This document shows, in pieces, positions 6,547 through 36,903 of a stretch of DNA of 50,420 nt. Position 1 is the first letter of the stretch, and every line of letters begins with the position of its first letter. The stretch covers positions 1 to 50,420 of the forward strand of contig JAFGEN010000354.1 of assembly GCA_016931595.1 (NCBI GenBank). The letters are read 5' to 3'. Origin of the DNA: Candidatus Aminicenantota bacterium (GTDB taxonomy: Bacteria > Acidobacteriota > Aminicenantia > Aminicenantales > UBA4085). Position numbers and translations under genes: made by a program. Below the pieces are notes generated by a model. The model searched no databases. It saw nothing but the letters and a program-made list of their open reading frames with translations, and was not told where the DNA came from.

Positions 6547-6623
6547 TATACCGGTCATCATAGGGGCAGGGAGGAAAATCGCAATCGCCTTTTGGGGTGA
6601 GAAGGGGGACGATTCCCGGGACC

Positions 6624-16994: not shown

Positions 16995-17017
16995 AGGGAT
17001 TCGACCCCTCTCTGCTT
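16985..17017 (-). terminator. Intrinsic terminator of proS
   Basis: On the minus strand AAGCA and AGGG pair with CCCT and TGCTT across a short loop (about 17017-16990), with a small bulge, and the stem is followed by TTTTAT. The upper arm begins at the proS stop codon. Its 3' part overlaps the -35 of the next gene. Confidence 0.6.
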
Positions 17018-18468
17018 CAATATGCCCGTGCGAAATGGGCCGCGGCCACGGCCGGCTTTCCGCAACAGAGGCAGGGGCCATCCTGGGGGGAGTCGTCTCC
17101 CGGCAGGATGACCCGGATGGTGGCCATCGTCTCGGTCTTGATTTTGTCCTCGCATTCCGCCCCGCCGCACCAGGGACTGACGACGAATCCACGCGACGAT
17201 TCCAGAACCGACTTGAACTCATCGTACGCTTGGACCCGCCGGGTGTTGGCCGTAAGGAAGGTCCCGGCCTGGTCAAAAAGGACCGCCTGGATCTCATCCA
17301 GAAGGGCGGGAACCCGGACGGCCAAATCCGCCAGGGGGACGGCCTGCTTGGTCTTCAAATCCCGGCGGACGCAAACGGCCTGGCCGTTTTTCACGTCGCG
17401 GGGACCGATCTCGATCCGCAGAGGGATGCCGCGCATCTCATATTCTGAGAATTTCCAGCCGGGGGTGGCTTCCTCCCGGGCATCAAGCTGAACCCGGACC
17501 CCGGCCTTCCTCAAGGACTCGGCCGCGGCCTGGGCCGCCGGTAGGACCGTCGTCTTCCAGTCTCCGAACGGGATCGGGATGATGACAACCTGGACCGGGG
17601 CGATCCGCGGCGGGAACCGGAGCCCGGAATCGTCGCCGTGGACCATGATCAAGGCCCCGATCGTCCGGGTGGTCATTCCCCAGGACGTCTGCCAGACGTA
17701 CTGGAGGGTCTGGCTCTGATCCTCGAACTTGATGTCGAACGCCCTTGAGAAGTGCTGGCCGAGGTTGTGGGACGTCCCCATCTGGAGGGCCTTGCCGTCG
17801 GACATGAGCGCCTCGATGGCATAGGTCATCTGGGCTCCGGCGAACTTTTCCCGCGGCGTCTTGTGCCCGGCCAGCACCGGGATGGCCAGCTCCGTTTCGC
17901 AGAACTCCTTGTACATCGTCAGGATGGATAGGGTTTCCACCTCGGCTTCTTCGGCCGTGGCGTGGCAGGTGTGACCTTCCTGCCAGAGGAATTCCGTCGT
18001 CCTGAGGAAGGGCCGGGTGACCTTTTCCCATCGGACGATGTTGGCCCACTGGTTGATCAGGACGGGCAGGTCCCGCCAAGATTTGATCCATTTCGAATAC
18101 ATCGGCCCGATGACGGCTTCCGAGGTCGGACGGACGGCCAGCCGCTCCTCGAGCTCTTCCTTCCCTCCGACCGTGACCCAGGCGACCTCGGGGGCGAATC
18201 CCTCGACGTGTTCGGCTTCCTTCTTGAGGAAGCTCTCCGGAATGAATAGGGGGAAATAAGCGTTGACGTGGCCCAGGGCCTTGATCCGCCGGTCCAGCCT
18301 TTGCTGGATATTCTCCCAGACGGCATAGCCATACGGACGAATGACCATCATCCCCTTCATCGGGGTGTAGTCGGCCAGCTCGGCCTTTTGAACGATTTCC
18401 CCGTACCATCGGGAAAAATCTTCGGTTTTCGGAGTGATCTGCTTCACAAGGCGTTCGTTCGCGCTCAC
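17017..18468 (-). CDS. proS: Prolyl-tRNA synthetase, short archaeal/eukaryal-type
   Basis: ProS charges tRNA-Pro. The 483-residue length and the absence of the INS editing domain place it in the type 3 (archaeal/eukaryal-like) class, which many bacteria also have. Class II motifs are clear: RPTSEAVI, the motif 2 region FLRTTEFLWQEGHT, and the motif 3 region HGDDSGLRFPPRIAP. An anticodon-binding domain follows, then a C-terminal domain with two Cys clusters (PWCGGAECEDK and CLCCGKPA) and a terminal Tyr, as is usual for this type. The start is a GTG with GGGAG six bases upstream. It has its own strong promoter and terminator, so it is monocistronic. Confidence 0.97.
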   Translation of the reverse strand: MSANERLVKQITPKTEDFSRWYGEIVQKAELADYTPMKGMMVIRPYGYAVWENIQQRLDRRIKALGHVNAYFPLFIPESFLKKEAEHVEGFAPEVAWVTVGGKEELEERLAVRPTSEAVIGPMYSKWIKSWRDLPVLINQWANIVRWEKVTRPFLRTTEFLWQEGHTCHATAEEAEVETLSILTMYKEFCETELAIPVLAGHKTPREKFAGAQMTYAIEALMSDGKALQMGTSHNLGQHFSRAFDIKFEDQSQTLQYVWQTSWGMTTRTIGALIMVHGDDSGLRFPPRIAPVQVVIIPIPFGDWKTTVLPAAQAAAESLRKAGVRVQLDAREEATPGWKFSEYEMRGIPLRIEIGPRDVKNGQAVCVRRDLKTKQAVPLADLAVRVPALLDEIQAVLFDQAGTFLTANTRRVQAYDEFKSVLESSRGFVVSPWCGGAECEDKIKTETMATIRVILPGDDSPQDGPCLCCGKPAVAAAHFARAY

Positions 18469-18526: not shown

Positions 18527-18595
18527 ATGGCAATCAAAAGGGAAAAGAGACGACGGCGGAAGGTGAGCGCCCGGACGGAGGATATCACCCTTTTT

Positions 18596-18618
18596 ATCAC
18601 CCTCAGGGGTGATTGACC
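18596..18618 (+). promoter_or_regulatory. Element ATCACCC-N9-ATTGACC upstream of the PilZ cluster
   Basis: ATCACCC (18596-18602) and ATTGACC (18612-18618) are separated by nine bases. The same two heptamers at the same spacing occur before the diguanylate cyclase gene (35795-35817). Here ATCACCC is also inverted as GGGTGAT (18607-18613) and repeated upstream at 18584-18590. TTGACC could serve as a -35, though no good -10 follows, as expected for an activator-dependent promoter. Confidence 0.5.
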
Positions 18619-18676
18619 CCCTTGACGCTTCCCGCGAAAATAGCCACGTCGATAGAAACCATAAGGAAGCGATGAC

Positions 18677-19039
18677 ATGGTGACAAAGATTCCGGCGGAC
18701 AACATGGACCTTCTGGGGCCGAAGAAGCAGGGCTTCACCTTCCCCCTGCCCACCCAGGTCGAAGGGCTGAACGCCAAGGGCCGGGACTTCTCCGAGGAAA
18801 CCGTCCTGACCTTCATCAGCCACGAGGGTTCCTCGTTCTGCCTGAAAAATCCAATCCAGGTCGGTTCCCGATTGAAAATGATCGTCGACCTCCCGGAACG
18901 GCTCGCCGACAATGTCCCCCTTAAGCTCGTCATCCGCGGCCGGGTGGCCAAAATCGAGGCCGTCTCGGGCGGCAACAGCGCCCAGCGGGTGACGCTCAAA
19001 TTCGACAGCAAATACATCATCAAGCCCGAGGACGCCTAA
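18677..19039 (+). CDS. PilZ-like protein, degenerate in c-di-GMP motif
   Basis: This 120-residue protein starts at the ATG at 18677 behind AAGGAAG. It has the strand pattern of a PilZ barrel: PLPTQVEGLNAKGRDFSEET, FISHEGSSFCL, VGSRLKMIVDLP, then LVIRGRVAKIE and QRVTLKFDSKYI. The second PilZ motif survives partly as Ser-His-Glu-Gly, but the first, with its paired arginines, is missing. It may therefore not bind c-di-GMP and may act as a partner or fold relic. One base separates its stop from the next PilZ-like gene. A conserved upstream element links it to the cyclase gene at 35914. Confidence 0.65.
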   Translation: MVTKIPADNMDLLGPKKQGFTFPLPTQVEGLNAKGRDFSEETVLTFISHEGSSFCLKNPIQVGSRLKMIVDLPERLADNVPLKLVIRGRVAKIEAVSGGNSAQRVTLKFDSKYIIKPEDA

Positions 19040-19040
19040 G

Positions 19041-19385
19041 ATGCCTGAAGACGGAGAAAAACCCGGCTCCCGGACATTCGAGATCGCCCTGCCCGCCCTG
19101 ATCCAAGGTTTAGATAAGGGCGAGCGCGAATTCGCCGAACAGACCGTGGTGTCAACCATCAACGCGGAGGAAGCCGTCGTCCTCCTTCGGTCGAAAGTCA
19201 AGCCGGGAGCCAAGATCCGCCTCTCGCTCCACATCCCCCGGACGTTCTTCCTGGAAAAGCCCCTGGACCTCAATCTGACCGGGACGATTTCGGAGATCCC
19301 CGCGCCGGAGAAGGGAGTCCGGGCGAAAGCGGCGGTCCGCGTCCGCCTGGACGATCGGTTCAGCATTCTCCCCGCCTCAGTATAA
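19041..19385 (+). CDS. PilZ-like protein, second degenerate copy
   Basis: The 114-residue product has the same strand order as the preceding gene (LPALIQGLDKGEREFAEQTVVS, VKPGAKIRLSLHIP, LDLNLTGTISEI, AAVRVRLDDRFSI), so the two are probably duplicates. Both c-di-GMP motifs are gone: there is no Arg-x3-Arg, and the usual Asn-x-Ser-x-x-Gly reads Ile-Asn-Ala-Glu-Glu-Ala. It follows one base after its neighbour and must be co-transcribed. A cytoplasmic regulatory or scaffold role is all that can be suggested. Confidence 0.6.
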   Translation: MPEDGEKPGSRTFEIALPALIQGLDKGEREFAEQTVVSTINAEEAVVLLRSKVKPGAKIRLSLHIPRTFFLEKPLDLNLTGTISEIPAPEKGVRAKAAVRVRLDDRFSILPASV

Positions 19386-19491: not shown

Positions 19492-20181
19492 ATGACAAAA
19501 AAAACCGCTCCGGCCCAAGCCGCCAAGAAGACCTCCGTTCTCCTGTATTGCCCCTCGGACCTGATCCTCGCCGGGATCCTGAAGTCCCTGGAAACCGACG
19601 AGCAGATCGAGGTTGTGGCGGTCGAGAAGGGAACCATCGATTCCTTCATGGGGGCCATCCGCCGCCTTCGTCCCCAGGTCATCCTGTTCACCAGCGCCGA
19701 AGCGATGCCCAACATGCGGGAGATCTGCAAGGCCATCCGGGACATCTCCCGGGACCAGATCAAGACGCAAATGCTGCTGCTGGGCAACATCCCCTCCCAT
19801 GAGGAAATCGTCAGCCTGATCAATGTCGGGGCCCGCGGTTATTTCGACCTGAACGACCCGTCCGGCCAACTGCCCGAGGCGGTCCGGGTTCTGGCCAAGG
19901 GCGAGATCTGGCTGCCCAGGGACAAGATGTCCAGCATCATGGATCGGATCATTTCCGTCGTCGGCCGGGAGATCAAGGAAAAGACGCTGGACCAGCTGAC
20001 GCCGACCGAGTTCCAGGTCCTCAAGCTCATCGGCCAGGGCAAGTCCAACGACGAGATCGCCACGACCCTGTTCATCAGCAAGAATACCGTCCGCTCCCAC
20101 ATTAAAAGCATCTACGCCAAACTCGACACCCACAGCCGTCTTCAGCTCGCTCTTTACGCGATCAATTCGGCTCTCTTCTGA
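19492..20181 (+). CDS. NarL/LuxR-type regulator with a pseudo-receiver domain
   Basis: The 229-residue product has a receiver-like domain (about 15-140) and a LuxR HTH (about 168-229; LTPTEFQVLKLIGQGKSNDEIA, then ISKNTVRSHIKSIYAKL). The receiver lacks every phosphorylation residue: the acidic pocket reads CPSD, the phospho-acceptor Asp is Thr67 (PQVILFTS), and the conserved Lys is Leu120 (GYFDLNDP). It should therefore respond to protein contact or a ligand, not to a kinase. It lies between two degenerate PilZ genes and one canonical PilZ gene, so PilZ interaction is an attractive idea but unproven. It has a strong promoter of its own. Confidence 0.85.
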   Translation: MTKKTAPAQAAKKTSVLLYCPSDLILAGILKSLETDEQIEVVAVEKGTIDSFMGAIRRLRPQVILFTSAEAMPNMREICKAIRDISRDQIKTQMLLLGNIPSHEEIVSLINVGARGYFDLNDPSGQLPEAVRVLAKGEIWLPRDKMSSIMDRIISVVGREIKEKTLDQLTPTEFQVLKLIGQGKSNDEIATTLFISKNTVRSHIKSIYAKLDTHSRLQLALYAINSALF

Positions 20182-20198: not shown

Positions 20199-20591
20199 AT
20201 GGCCATGCGTACGAAATCCTCCGCCAAAGCCGCTGCCTCCCTCGTCTCCGCTCAAATCGCCCGGAGAAGAGAAGGCCGCTTCGAGATGCCCCTGTCGGCC
20301 GACGTCCGGGGGTCCCTTCCCCGCGGATCGACCTTCCAGGAAACGGCGAAAATCCGGAACATCAGCTCGACCGGCGCCTACCTCTACCTCCAGGCGGCGG
20401 TCATCGTCGGAACCAAGCTGACGCTGGCCATTTCGCTGCCGGCAAGAGCCACCGGCGGAAAGCCTCTCCGGTTGAAAATAGCCGGTTCCGTCGTCAGGAT
20501 GGAAAAGGCCCGCAAGACCTCCCGCAAGCTGGGCGTCGCCGTCCGGTTCGCCAGGGAATACCGGTTCGTCGCCGCGCCGACGCGGTCCTGA
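20199..20591 (+). CDS. PilZ domain protein with intact c-di-GMP motifs
   Basis: This 130-residue protein starts behind GAGGGAAAGG, 17 bp after the LuxR-type gene. The PilZ motifs are present: RREGRFEMPLSADVRG supplies the paired arginines and IRNISSTGAYLYL the Asn-x-Ser-x-x-Gly. A barrel follows (LTLAISLP, LKIAGSVVRM, LGVAVRF). The first 25 residues are an Ala/Ser-rich basic leader. It is the one member of this cluster that should bind c-di-GMP. It probably relays c-di-GMP levels to a partner, perhaps the co-transcribed regulator. Ten bases separate it from coaE. Confidence 0.82.
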   Translation: MAMRTKSSAKAAASLVSAQIARRREGRFEMPLSADVRGSLPRGSTFQETAKIRNISSTGAYLYLQAAVIVGTKLTLAISLPARATGGKPLRLKIAGSVVRMEKARKTSRKLGVAVRFAREYRFVAAPTRS

Positions 20592-20601
20592 CCCGGTTCG
20601 A

Positions 20602-21237
20602 ATGCTCCGCGTCGCCCTGACCGGAGGCATTGCCTCGGGGAAGTCTGTTGTCGCCGAAATCTTCCGACAACGCGGATTCCATCTTTTCTCGGCCGACCGC
20701 GCCGGCCGCGACTTCATGGCTCCCGGCGGCCCGGCATATTCCCCGATCGTCGAAAAATTCGGGCCGTCCATTCTGGCCGGCAACCAAACCCCCGGGGCCC
20801 CCATCGACCGGTCCGCCCTGGCCGCGATCCTCTTCTCCGACTCCGAAGCCAAGCGGTTCGTAGAGGGCGTGGTTCATCCGCTGACGATCGCAGCCATGAA
20901 GGCGGCGGCGGCCCGCCTGGAAGCCGAAGGCCGGACGGACGTCTTCGTGGCCGAATCCGCCCTGACCGTCGAAGCCGGCCTGGTCGAGGCTTTTGACCGG
21001 ATCATCGTCGTCCACTGCGACACGGAGACCCAAGTCCGCCGGCTGATGGACCGCGACGGAATCGGGCGCGAAGCGGCCCTGGCCCGGATCCGGACCCAGA
21101 AGCCGGTCGAGGAAAAGCTCCGGTTCGCCGATTTTGCCGTCGATTCGTCTGGGGAGATGGAAGAAACGATCGCCCGGGCTGAGGCCGTCGCCTCGCTTCT
21201 CTTGGATGAAGCCCGGGCCGGCCGGTTCAACCCTTAA
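20602..21237 (+). CDS. coaE: Dephospho-CoA kinase
   Basis: CoaE performs the last step of coenzyme A synthesis, phosphorylating the 3'-OH of dephospho-CoA. The 211-residue product begins with the P-loop VALTGGIASGKSVVAE and continues with SADRAGRDFMAPG, HPLTIAAMKAAAA and the lid/LID-type region RLMDRDGIGREAALARIRTQ, all standard. The length is normal. It ends in a stretch overlapping the convergent deoxyhypusine-synthase-like gene by 11 bp. It is probably co-transcribed with the PilZ/LuxR genes, a chance housekeeping passenger. Confidence 0.95.
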   Translation: MLRVALTGGIASGKSVVAEIFRQRGFHLFSADRAGRDFMAPGGPAYSPIVEKFGPSILAGNQTPGAPIDRSALAAILFSDSEAKRFVEGVVHPLTIAAMKAAAARLEAEGRTDVFVAESALTVEAGLVEAFDRIIVVHCDTETQVRRLMDRDGIGREAALARIRTQKPVEEKLRFADFAVDSSGEMEETIARAEAVASLLLDEARAGRFNP

Positions 21238-35771: not shown

Positions 35772-35794
35772 GAGGGTCCTCCTCCCCCCCGAAT

Positions 35795-35839
35795 ATCACC
35801 CCTGACGGGCATTGACCTGAGTCTTGACTTGAATATAAT
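35795..35839 (+). promoter_or_regulatory. Diguanylate cyclase promoter with ATCACCC-N9-ATTGACC element
   Basis: ATCACCC (35795-35801) lies nine bases before ATTGACC (35811-35817), the same arrangement as upstream of the PilZ cluster. TTGACC (35812-35817) also serves as a -35, 16 nt before a perfect TATAAT (35834-35839). A protein bound to the left heptamer would sit directly next to RNA polymerase. Confidence 0.6.
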
Positions 35840-35913: not shown

Positions 35914-36903
35914 ATGTCTCCTCTTCCTTCGGTCCTGATCGCGGAAGACGATCCGATATCCAGTCGGATTCTGGAGAAAAACCTCAGGTCCTGGGGATAT
36001 GAAACGACGGTCGCCCGCAACGGCAACCAGGCATGGGAAACCCTCCGAGGCCCGACGACCAGGCTGGCTCTTCTCGACTGGATGATGCCGGGAGCCGAAG
36101 GCCCCGAACTGTGCCGGCGGATCCGGGCGCTGAACAAGCCGGGTTATACCTACATCATCCTCCTGACCTCCCGCGACAGCGTCCAGGACATCATCGACGG
36201 CCTGGAAGCGGGAGCCGACGACTTCATGACCAAACCGGTGAATTTCGCCGAGCTGAGGGCGCGGCTTCAAACGGGAGGACGGATCATCGCCCTGGAGGAC
36301 AAGCTCCTCGATTCTCAGAAACGGCTGTTTGAACTGGCCACCCGGGACAGTTTGACCGGGATCTGGAACCGTGCGACAATCCTCCGTTTTCTTTCGGATG
36401 AAATGGCCCACTGCCGGCGGGGCGGCGACTATTCCCTCAGCACCATTCTCATCGACGTCGACTATTTTAAAAAAATCAACGATACCCATGGGCACCTGGT
36501 CGGCGACAAGGTCCTCAGCAAGGTCACGTCTTGCCTGGAAAAACACATTCGTCCGTACGACAAGGTCGGCCGGTACGGCGGAGACGAATTCCTGATCGTT
36601 TTACCAAACTGCAGCCTGTATCACGTCGCCGTCGTCGCCGAGCGACTCCGGACGGCCGTGGAAAAACTGAAAATCCGGGTCGAGGGGGGGGTCCTGAACC
36701 TCTCCCTGTCCCTGGGCTGTGCCTCATCGGAATGCTTCCGCCGCGCAGCCGGTGAGCGGATGATCAAGGAAAGCGACCGGGCTCTCTACAAAGCCAAGCA
36801 AGAAGGACGCAACCGCGTCGGGCTCTGCTCAGAGCTCAAAGGCCCGAAAGACAACCGGAAAGAAAAGAAGAAAGGAGCCCGCCGTGTCATCGAATCCAAG
36901 TGA
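35914..36903 (+). CDS. PleD-like response regulator with diguanylate cyclase (GGDEF) domain
   Basis: The 329-residue product joins a receiver domain (8-125) and a GGDEF domain (145-305). The receiver is intact: EDD at 11-13, phospho-Asp55 (LLDWMMPG), and Lys near 117 (FMTKPVNF). The cyclase active loop is YGGDEF at 221-226, so it should make c-di-GMP from GTP when phosphorylated. No RxxD inhibitory site is seen just before the loop. The Lys/Arg-rich tail (KGPKDNRKEKKKG) overlaps the next gene, an HPt protein, by 20 bp. It likely supplies c-di-GMP to the PilZ proteins of this window. Its promoter shares an element with the PilZ cluster. Confidence 0.95.
   Translation: MSPLPSVLIAEDDPISSRILEKNLRSWGYETTVARNGNQAWETLRGPTTRLALLDWMMPGAEGPELCRRIRALNKPGYTYIILLTSRDSVQDIIDGLEAGADDFMTKPVNFAELRARLQTGGRIIALEDKLLDSQKRLFELATRDSLTGIWNRATILRFLSDEMAHCRRGGDYSLSTILIDVDYFKKINDTHGHLVGDKVLSKVTSCLEKHIRPYDKVGRYGGDEFLIVLPNCSLYHVAVVAERLRTAVEKLKIRVEGGVLNLSLSLGCASSECFRRAAGERMIKESDRALYKAKQEGRNRVGLCSELKGPKDNRKEKKKGARRVIESK

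Follow-up and report, generated by a model that had tools for sequence, protein, structure and literature searches.

A shared element before c-di-GMP genes

Upstream of a cluster of PilZ-like genes and upstream of a diguanylate cyclase gene, the window (the whole stretch of DNA analysed here, 50,420 nucleotides) carries the same pair of heptamers at the same spacing. We asked whether the two copies mark a regulon that joins c-di-GMP synthesis to its receptors, and which protein would read them. The pair, ATCACCC-N9-ATTGACC, had been reported in a first-pass annotation of this DNA and is found at both places, as ATCACCCTCAGGGGTGATTGACC at 18596-18618 and as ATCACCCCTGACGGGCATTGACC at 35795-35817. 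The window belongs to a genome of the Aminicenantales, Acidobacteriota (G000, 2.93 Mb in 373 contigs); the Aminicenantes are known chiefly through metagenomes. A scan of all 2.93 Mb for the pair returned two exact copies only, both inside the window; an order-2 Markov model of the window predicts 0.00025 copies for the window and 0.015 for the genome. Allowing up to one mismatch in the 23-mer gave 6 matches in this genome, and allowing up to two gave 18, which is about the chance level; the targets of these 18 were mixed, and a profile isolated strong sites better. Both exact copies terminate in a sigma-70 -35 hexamer, and the TTGACC before the cyclase gene is indeed followed 16 bp on by a TATAAT box, as the annotation had it. 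Because the 23-mer pattern was picked post hoc, its conservation across other genomes was the real test, and it passed. When checked across genomes, neither unlinked random matches nor absence from relatives, the two outcomes that had been named as fatal to the idea, was found.

A three-half-site module joined to the -35 hexamer

The shared element is real, but at 23 bp it was drawn too short. The PilZ-cluster promoter has another ATCACCC 12 bp before the 23-mer, whose left heptamer is itself part of a perfect inverted repeat, ATCACCC-TCAG-GGGTGAT. This suggests a unit of about 40 bp, not 23, and a longer module of which the 23-mer forms the right-hand part. The consensus of the full module is TTCACCCCn4TTCAYCCnnAGGGGTGATTGACC, which comprises three half-sites and ends in the -35 hexamer. 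Half-site A has the consensus TCACCCC, half-site B, 12 bp after A, TTCAYCC, and the inverted half-site C AGGGGTGA. The alignment of PilZ-cluster promoters gave AAWTTCACCCC-n4-TTCAYCC-nn-AGGGGTGATTGACC, with a -10 box in register about 17 bp further on. The features of the window are collected in Table 1.

Table 1. Predicted regulatory features and genes of the window, in order of position
Feature	Position	Strand	Basis
Third, tentative element, before the gene of an apparently secreted 635-aa protein (6546-4642)	6582..6607	-	profile 12.0 bits, window E 0.009; TATGAT downstream
GGTGAG, possible fourth half-site	18562..18567	+	fixed upstream place in many PilZ-cluster promoters; column conservation, 26 aligned regions
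PilZ-like cluster promoter, predicted operator/-35 module with three half-sites	18582..18619	+	profile R1 37.5 bits, window E 7e-11; gapless in orthologous loci
Half-site A, ATCACCC	18584..18590	+	
Half-site B, ATCACCC, left heptamer of the 23-mer	18596..18602	+	
Half-site C, GGGGTGAT, inverted relative to B	18606..18613	+	
-35 hexamer TTGACC, PilZ-cluster promoter	18613..18618	+	promoter scan; kept in orthologues
-10 hexamer GAAAAT, PilZ-cluster promoter, spacer 17	18636..18641	+	promoter scan
PilZ-like protein 1, without canonical c-di-GMP motifs	18677..19039	+	homologues in 58/59 relatives
PilZ-like protein 2, without (D/N)xSxxG motif	19041..19385	+	resembles PilZ-like protein 1; motif check
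LuxR/NarL-type regulator, receiver without phosphoacceptor, proposed binder of the element	19492..20181	+	GerE domain; orthologue conservation; model
Canonical PilZ protein, RREGR and NISSTG	20199..20591	+	PF07238; motifs
coaE, dephospho-CoA kinase, downstream gene	20602..21237	+	PF01121
Operator/-35 module of the cyclase promoter, weak predicted site holding the second 23-mer	35785..35818	+	profile 12.8 bits, window E 0.005
-35 hexamer TTGACC, cyclase promoter	35812..35817	+	
-10 hexamer TATAAT, cyclase promoter, spacer 16	35834..35839	+	
Response regulator-GGDEF diguanylate cyclase gene	35914..36903	+	PF00072, PF00990

We compared the upstream regions of 30 orthologous PilZ-cluster loci, which fall into seven families. 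The core GGTGATTGA was present within 330 bp in all 30, once as GGATGATTGA, and a gapless alignment over 40 bp was possible for most of the regions. Each family was scored with a matrix from whose training it had been left out: 27 of the 30 regions reached 16-59 bits, and the maxima of shuffled sequence did not exceed 11.7; the other three, outliers from one genus (L041-L043), were too diverged to score. The training sites were chosen by the core, so that the flanking half-sites, and not the core columns, are independent evidence. Some loci of other families (L034, L037, L039, L047) have the element (AAAATCACCCTTnGATTCATC...GGGATTG) a second time, in the gap between PilZ-like genes 1 and 2. 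On the other side of the intergenic region in the window, the divergent prolyl-tRNA synthetase gene (17017-18468, minus strand) is faced by a strong consensus promoter of its own, TTGACA-N17-TAGAAT, at 18526-18498 on the minus strand.

The profile stops at the -35 hexamer, and the -10 box thus lies outside the search model. A -10-like hexamer was found 16-18 bp past the -35 in 62 of 80 distinct profile sites (71 of the 80 not in training); shifted offsets gave 4 and 5 such sites, and shuffles 5.5 on average and 13 at most. This supports the view that the profile sites are promoters. A chance origin of the element is rejected on the genome counts, the Markov expectation, the phase of the -10 box and the conservation in orthologues. 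A repeat family or mobile sequence was rejected because the copies stand at promoters in constant phase with the -10 box. An RNA element was likewise rejected: the element has no Rfam match and stands before the point where transcription is expected to begin, and no Rfam family of c-di-GMP riboswitches matched in the window at gathering scores.

All proteins of the cluster that had been labelled PilZ were checked for motifs. The canonical c-di-GMP motifs, RxxxR and (D/N)xSxxG, occur together only in the third of the three cluster proteins checked; the first two lack the pair. PilZ-like protein 1 is conserved across the order despite the missing motif pair. The first two proteins may be PilZ-like domains with a structural or partner-binding role.

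The element and the cluster regulator are confined to the Aminicenantales

Among 119 Acidobacteriota genomes, the four of the Aminicenantales held 26 of the 28 profile matches at E<=0.01; the remaining 2, neither above 19.1 bits, came from the other 115, and sites of at least 20 bits occurred only in the four. Close orthologues of the LuxR/NarL-type regulator of the cluster were found in the same four genomes only (>320 bits, vs <=83 elsewhere among the 119). The element and the regulator share one phylogenetic origin, and their co-occurrence therefore counts once. Within the order, the regulator was present in 85 of 94 genomes, including all 45 that are complete and clean; the genomes without a match are all outside these 45.

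The regulator carries a GerE helix-turn-helix (PF00196, 69.4 bits vs a cut-off of 23.5), and an AlphaFold model (mean pLDDT 76) gives its N-terminal part a receiver fold of alternating strands and helices, for which the best Foldseek matches were LiaR, VraR, RcsB and NarL. Its close relatives, at up to 95% identity, come from Candidatus Aminicenantes or Acidobacteria, which together with comparisons at order level puts the window in the Aminicenantales. The phosphoacceptor aspartate is absent: the aspartate of LiaR aligns with T67, a position that is mostly alanine in 81 orthologues. The segment IWLPRD is unchanged in all 81 sequences and aligns with DEMWLTR of VpsT. The c-di-GMP motif of VpsT- and CsgD-type regulators is W[FLM][TS]R, which WLPR does not fit, its third residue being P instead of T or S. 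In the model an extra long helix, residues 143-168, directly follows WLPR; part of this helix has low confidence (pLDDT 57-61). A pairwise alignment with VpsT, in which the PDB chain is taken to be offset by one residue from the published numbering, gives R143 and M150 as the corresponding positions; in VpsT, the R134A change disrupts c-di-GMP binding (PMC3359988). Other LuxR proteins of the phylum have related but not identical WxxR segments, so the motif alone is no proof of ligand binding. Taken together, the loss of the phosphoacceptor and the invariant WLPR at the c-di-GMP site of VpsT make input from a ligand likelier than input from phosphorylation, and c-di-GMP is a credible if tentative candidate for that ligand. 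One genome has a second LuxR-type regulator copy with a stop inside its frame (L288, CP070825.1, G174:C1:1118664-1119320).

The membership of this regulator in an operon that carries the element, and the confinement of both regulator and element to the same order, suggest that the regulator is probably the protein that binds the element. Another transcription factor, encoded elsewhere, might bind it instead in a regulon that is nonetheless real, the LuxR-type protein of the cluster acting downstream at sites of a different kind. The link between regulator and DNA is drawn from sequence, the LuxR gene is one of several order-wide candidates, and the element also precedes many other signalling and receiver-domain genes, all of which would suit such a factor. 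Against it, a strong and highly conserved site stands before the regulator's own operon in all the families examined, as is usual under autoregulation, and the helix-turn-helix of the regulator is, like the element, nearly invariant across the order to which both are confined. We consider a different binder unlikely, though it keeps some weight.

The position of the operator points to activation

Half-sites B and C form a dyad whose centre is some 45 bp ahead of where transcription is expected to start, and class II activators sit at about this distance. We infer that the cluster regulator, possibly loaded with c-di-GMP, would bind half-sites A, B and C and recruit RNA polymerase at the -35 hexamer, and a positive effect on transcription seems likely. 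Half-site C overlaps the -35, and a protein seated there could instead block RNA polymerase. Such repression is rather improbable given the three upstream half-sites, the dyad near -45 and the often poor -10 boxes (GAAAAT, CATTCT), which suit activation; the LuxR/NarL family, moreover, mostly activates from such positions.

The cyclase promoter carries the module in several relatives

The cyclase site is weak in the window's own genome, where its profile E value is 0.29 genome-wide. The upstream regions of the cyclase gene and its orthologues were scored with a matrix that contained no cyclase sites. The best scores were 9.1 in G000, 15.5 in G001, 25.3 in G006, 23.3 in G007 and 45.0 in G015, compared with a 95th percentile of about -10 in shuffled sequence; G002, at -0.4, was borderline. 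The module thus precedes six cyclase orthologues (one borderline) from four genera. G001 and G002, both of the window's own genus, and G007 retain a short form, [AT]TCACC-N10-ATTGACC, followed by TATAAT or GAGAAT. No clear site was found before the cyclase orthologues of G003, G010, G012, G013, G018 and G019 or before more distant homologues. Strong sites in some orthologues and none in others suggest that the link between the cyclase and the cluster is conserved, not universal.

The weakness of the site here and its absence from several orthologues would agree with a chance resemblance, in which case the regulon would comprise only the PilZ-cluster promoters and those of pilus and polysaccharide genes. 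This is improbable, since full, strong sites precede the gene in G006, G007 and G015, with an intermediate one in G001, and all of these scores greatly exceed the shuffles, and since the spacing is preserved in G001, G002 and G007. The element being conserved before orthologues of both units, the proposal that a regulon joins c-di-GMP synthesis to PilZ-type receptors is well supported, and it is very likely that a single regulon shares the element as its operator.

A gene divergent from an AI-2E transporter carries the full element in families f2 and f3 (L059, L061, L063, L072). We rejected this copy as a cyclase site because it faces a PAS-domain signalling gene where readable.

Targets of the element

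Synthesis and receptors, which the first-pass annotation had taken as the scope of the regulon, are part of it, but the regulon is much wider and takes in type IV pili, exopolysaccharide genes and kinases. Sites were collected with profile R1, built from sequence only on 34 sites, mainly from PilZ-cluster promoters and including some target sites; the top rank of the PilZ-cluster promoters in most genomes is therefore partly circular. At a permissive E<=0.5, R1 gave 4-28 sites per genome in 30 relatives. The genomes compared are draft metagenome bins. We read 60 stretches around the best sites beyond the PilZ-cluster promoter, with own-genus sites read separately, and took as the target of each site, mechanically, the longest frame starting within 400 bp.

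In the window's own genome the element precedes, besides the PilZ-like cluster, a pilB gene whose product has an MshEN c-di-GMP-type domain (C182), an SLT transglycosylase gene (C137), the gene of a receiver-domain protein (C326), coaD followed by pilM (C77) and, at a weaker site, an asparagine synthase-type amidotransferase gene (C134). Among relatives, coaD-like targets recurred in G001, G002, G003, G005, G006, G007, G017 and G023, and pilB in G019 and, by sequence, G014. Other targets in relatives are prepilin-like genes, further PilZ genes, HD-type and PAS/GAF histidine kinase genes, CheR, Wzz, flippase-like and sugar transferase genes, receiver-TonB fusions and secreted repeat proteins. 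In several families the element is repeatedly followed by genes of proteins that have a receiver at the N-terminus (L129, L137, L141, L145, L153, L171, L180), and Pfam confirmed a TonB C-terminal domain in L129, L137 and L153. The 635-aa protein behind the tentative third element of the window had no Pfam match.

The functional coherence of these targets is a judgement, not a statistic. On that footing, the element probably marks surface-lifestyle genes throughout the Aminicenantales, those for pili, surface sugars and signalling. The element might instead define a class of extended promoters in this order, read by a housekeeping or alternative sigma factor without a separate activator. This would account for the constant phase with the -35 and -10 boxes and for a -35 conserved in nearly all sites, but it is very improbable, as the half-sites extend about 30 bp upstream of the -35 as a dyad plus a direct repeat, the hexamers are ordinary sigma-70 ones, and 4-28 sites per genome are too few for a housekeeping class.

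A proposed surface-lifestyle regulon

We think it fairly likely that a promoter-proximal activator has its operator in this element and governs a surface-lifestyle regulon; the activator is most likely the LuxR/NarL-type regulator of the cluster. The regulator would raise the expression of its own operon, of the cyclase gene and of the pilus and polysaccharide genes, and cyclase and receptors could then form a positive-feedback loop, as VpsT and vpvABC do in Vibrio cholerae. A bolder reading, possible but doubtful, is that of a single ancient, order-wide positive-feedback switch for attached life, whose sensor would be a new pseudo-receiver LuxR type reading c-di-GMP through the invariant WLPR and acting at a three-half-site operator fused to the -35 hexamer. 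No such regulon of the Aminicenantes was described in the open-licence literature searched, which does not prove its absence. The strongly conserved operator, with dozens of identifiable targets, offers a ready regulon with a candidate master regulator, and the element predicts which genes of unknown function serve surface life.

Comparison with known systems

NarL, VraR and LiaR are the best matches of the regulator in sequence and fold (LiaR 5hev, VraR 4gvp, NarL 1a04) and have the same domain order. The regulator described here differs from them in lacking the phosphoacceptor aspartate, and no partner kinase gene was seen beside it in the cluster. CsgD, the enterobacterial biofilm master regulator, is of the same regulator family and has a similar sort of targets, but our regulator scored 58.6 bits against NCBIfam NF007505, whose cut-off is 250. 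MalT boxes resemble the element in being G-rich directional half-sites near the -35 that are read by a LuxR-type helix-turn-helix; MalT itself, unlike our regulator, is a large STAND ATPase, and the consensus differs.

VpsT, the LuxR/FixJ/CsgD-type c-di-GMP-responsive biofilm activator of V. cholerae, shares with our regulator a receiver-like domain followed by a LuxR helix-turn-helix, and both have a tryptophan-leucine-x-arginine where the c-di-GMP motif lies and a further helix behind the receiver (modelled here). Exopolysaccharide genes and a diguanylate cyclase gene carry target sites in both systems. The V. cholerae cyclase operon vpvABC is activated by VpsT, which closes a positive loop (PMC8754643). 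The two differ in that overall similarity is low, with 19% identity in the fold comparison, and in that the motif is WLPR in place of W[FLM][TS]R. Whereas VpsT reads a degenerate T-box, the palindrome W R [CG] Y W W R [GC] Y W (PMC8754643), the operator described here is built of three TCACCC/GGGTGA half-sites, and by inspection its B-C dyad, TCACCC-TCAG-GGGTGA, does not fit the T-box. The regulator gene lies here in a PilZ-like/coaE cluster, and type IV pilus genes are major targets, which also sets the system apart from that of VpsT. If the regulator does sense c-di-GMP, a VpsT-like solution, a transcription factor with feedback through a cyclase, would exist far outside the Vibrionaceae.
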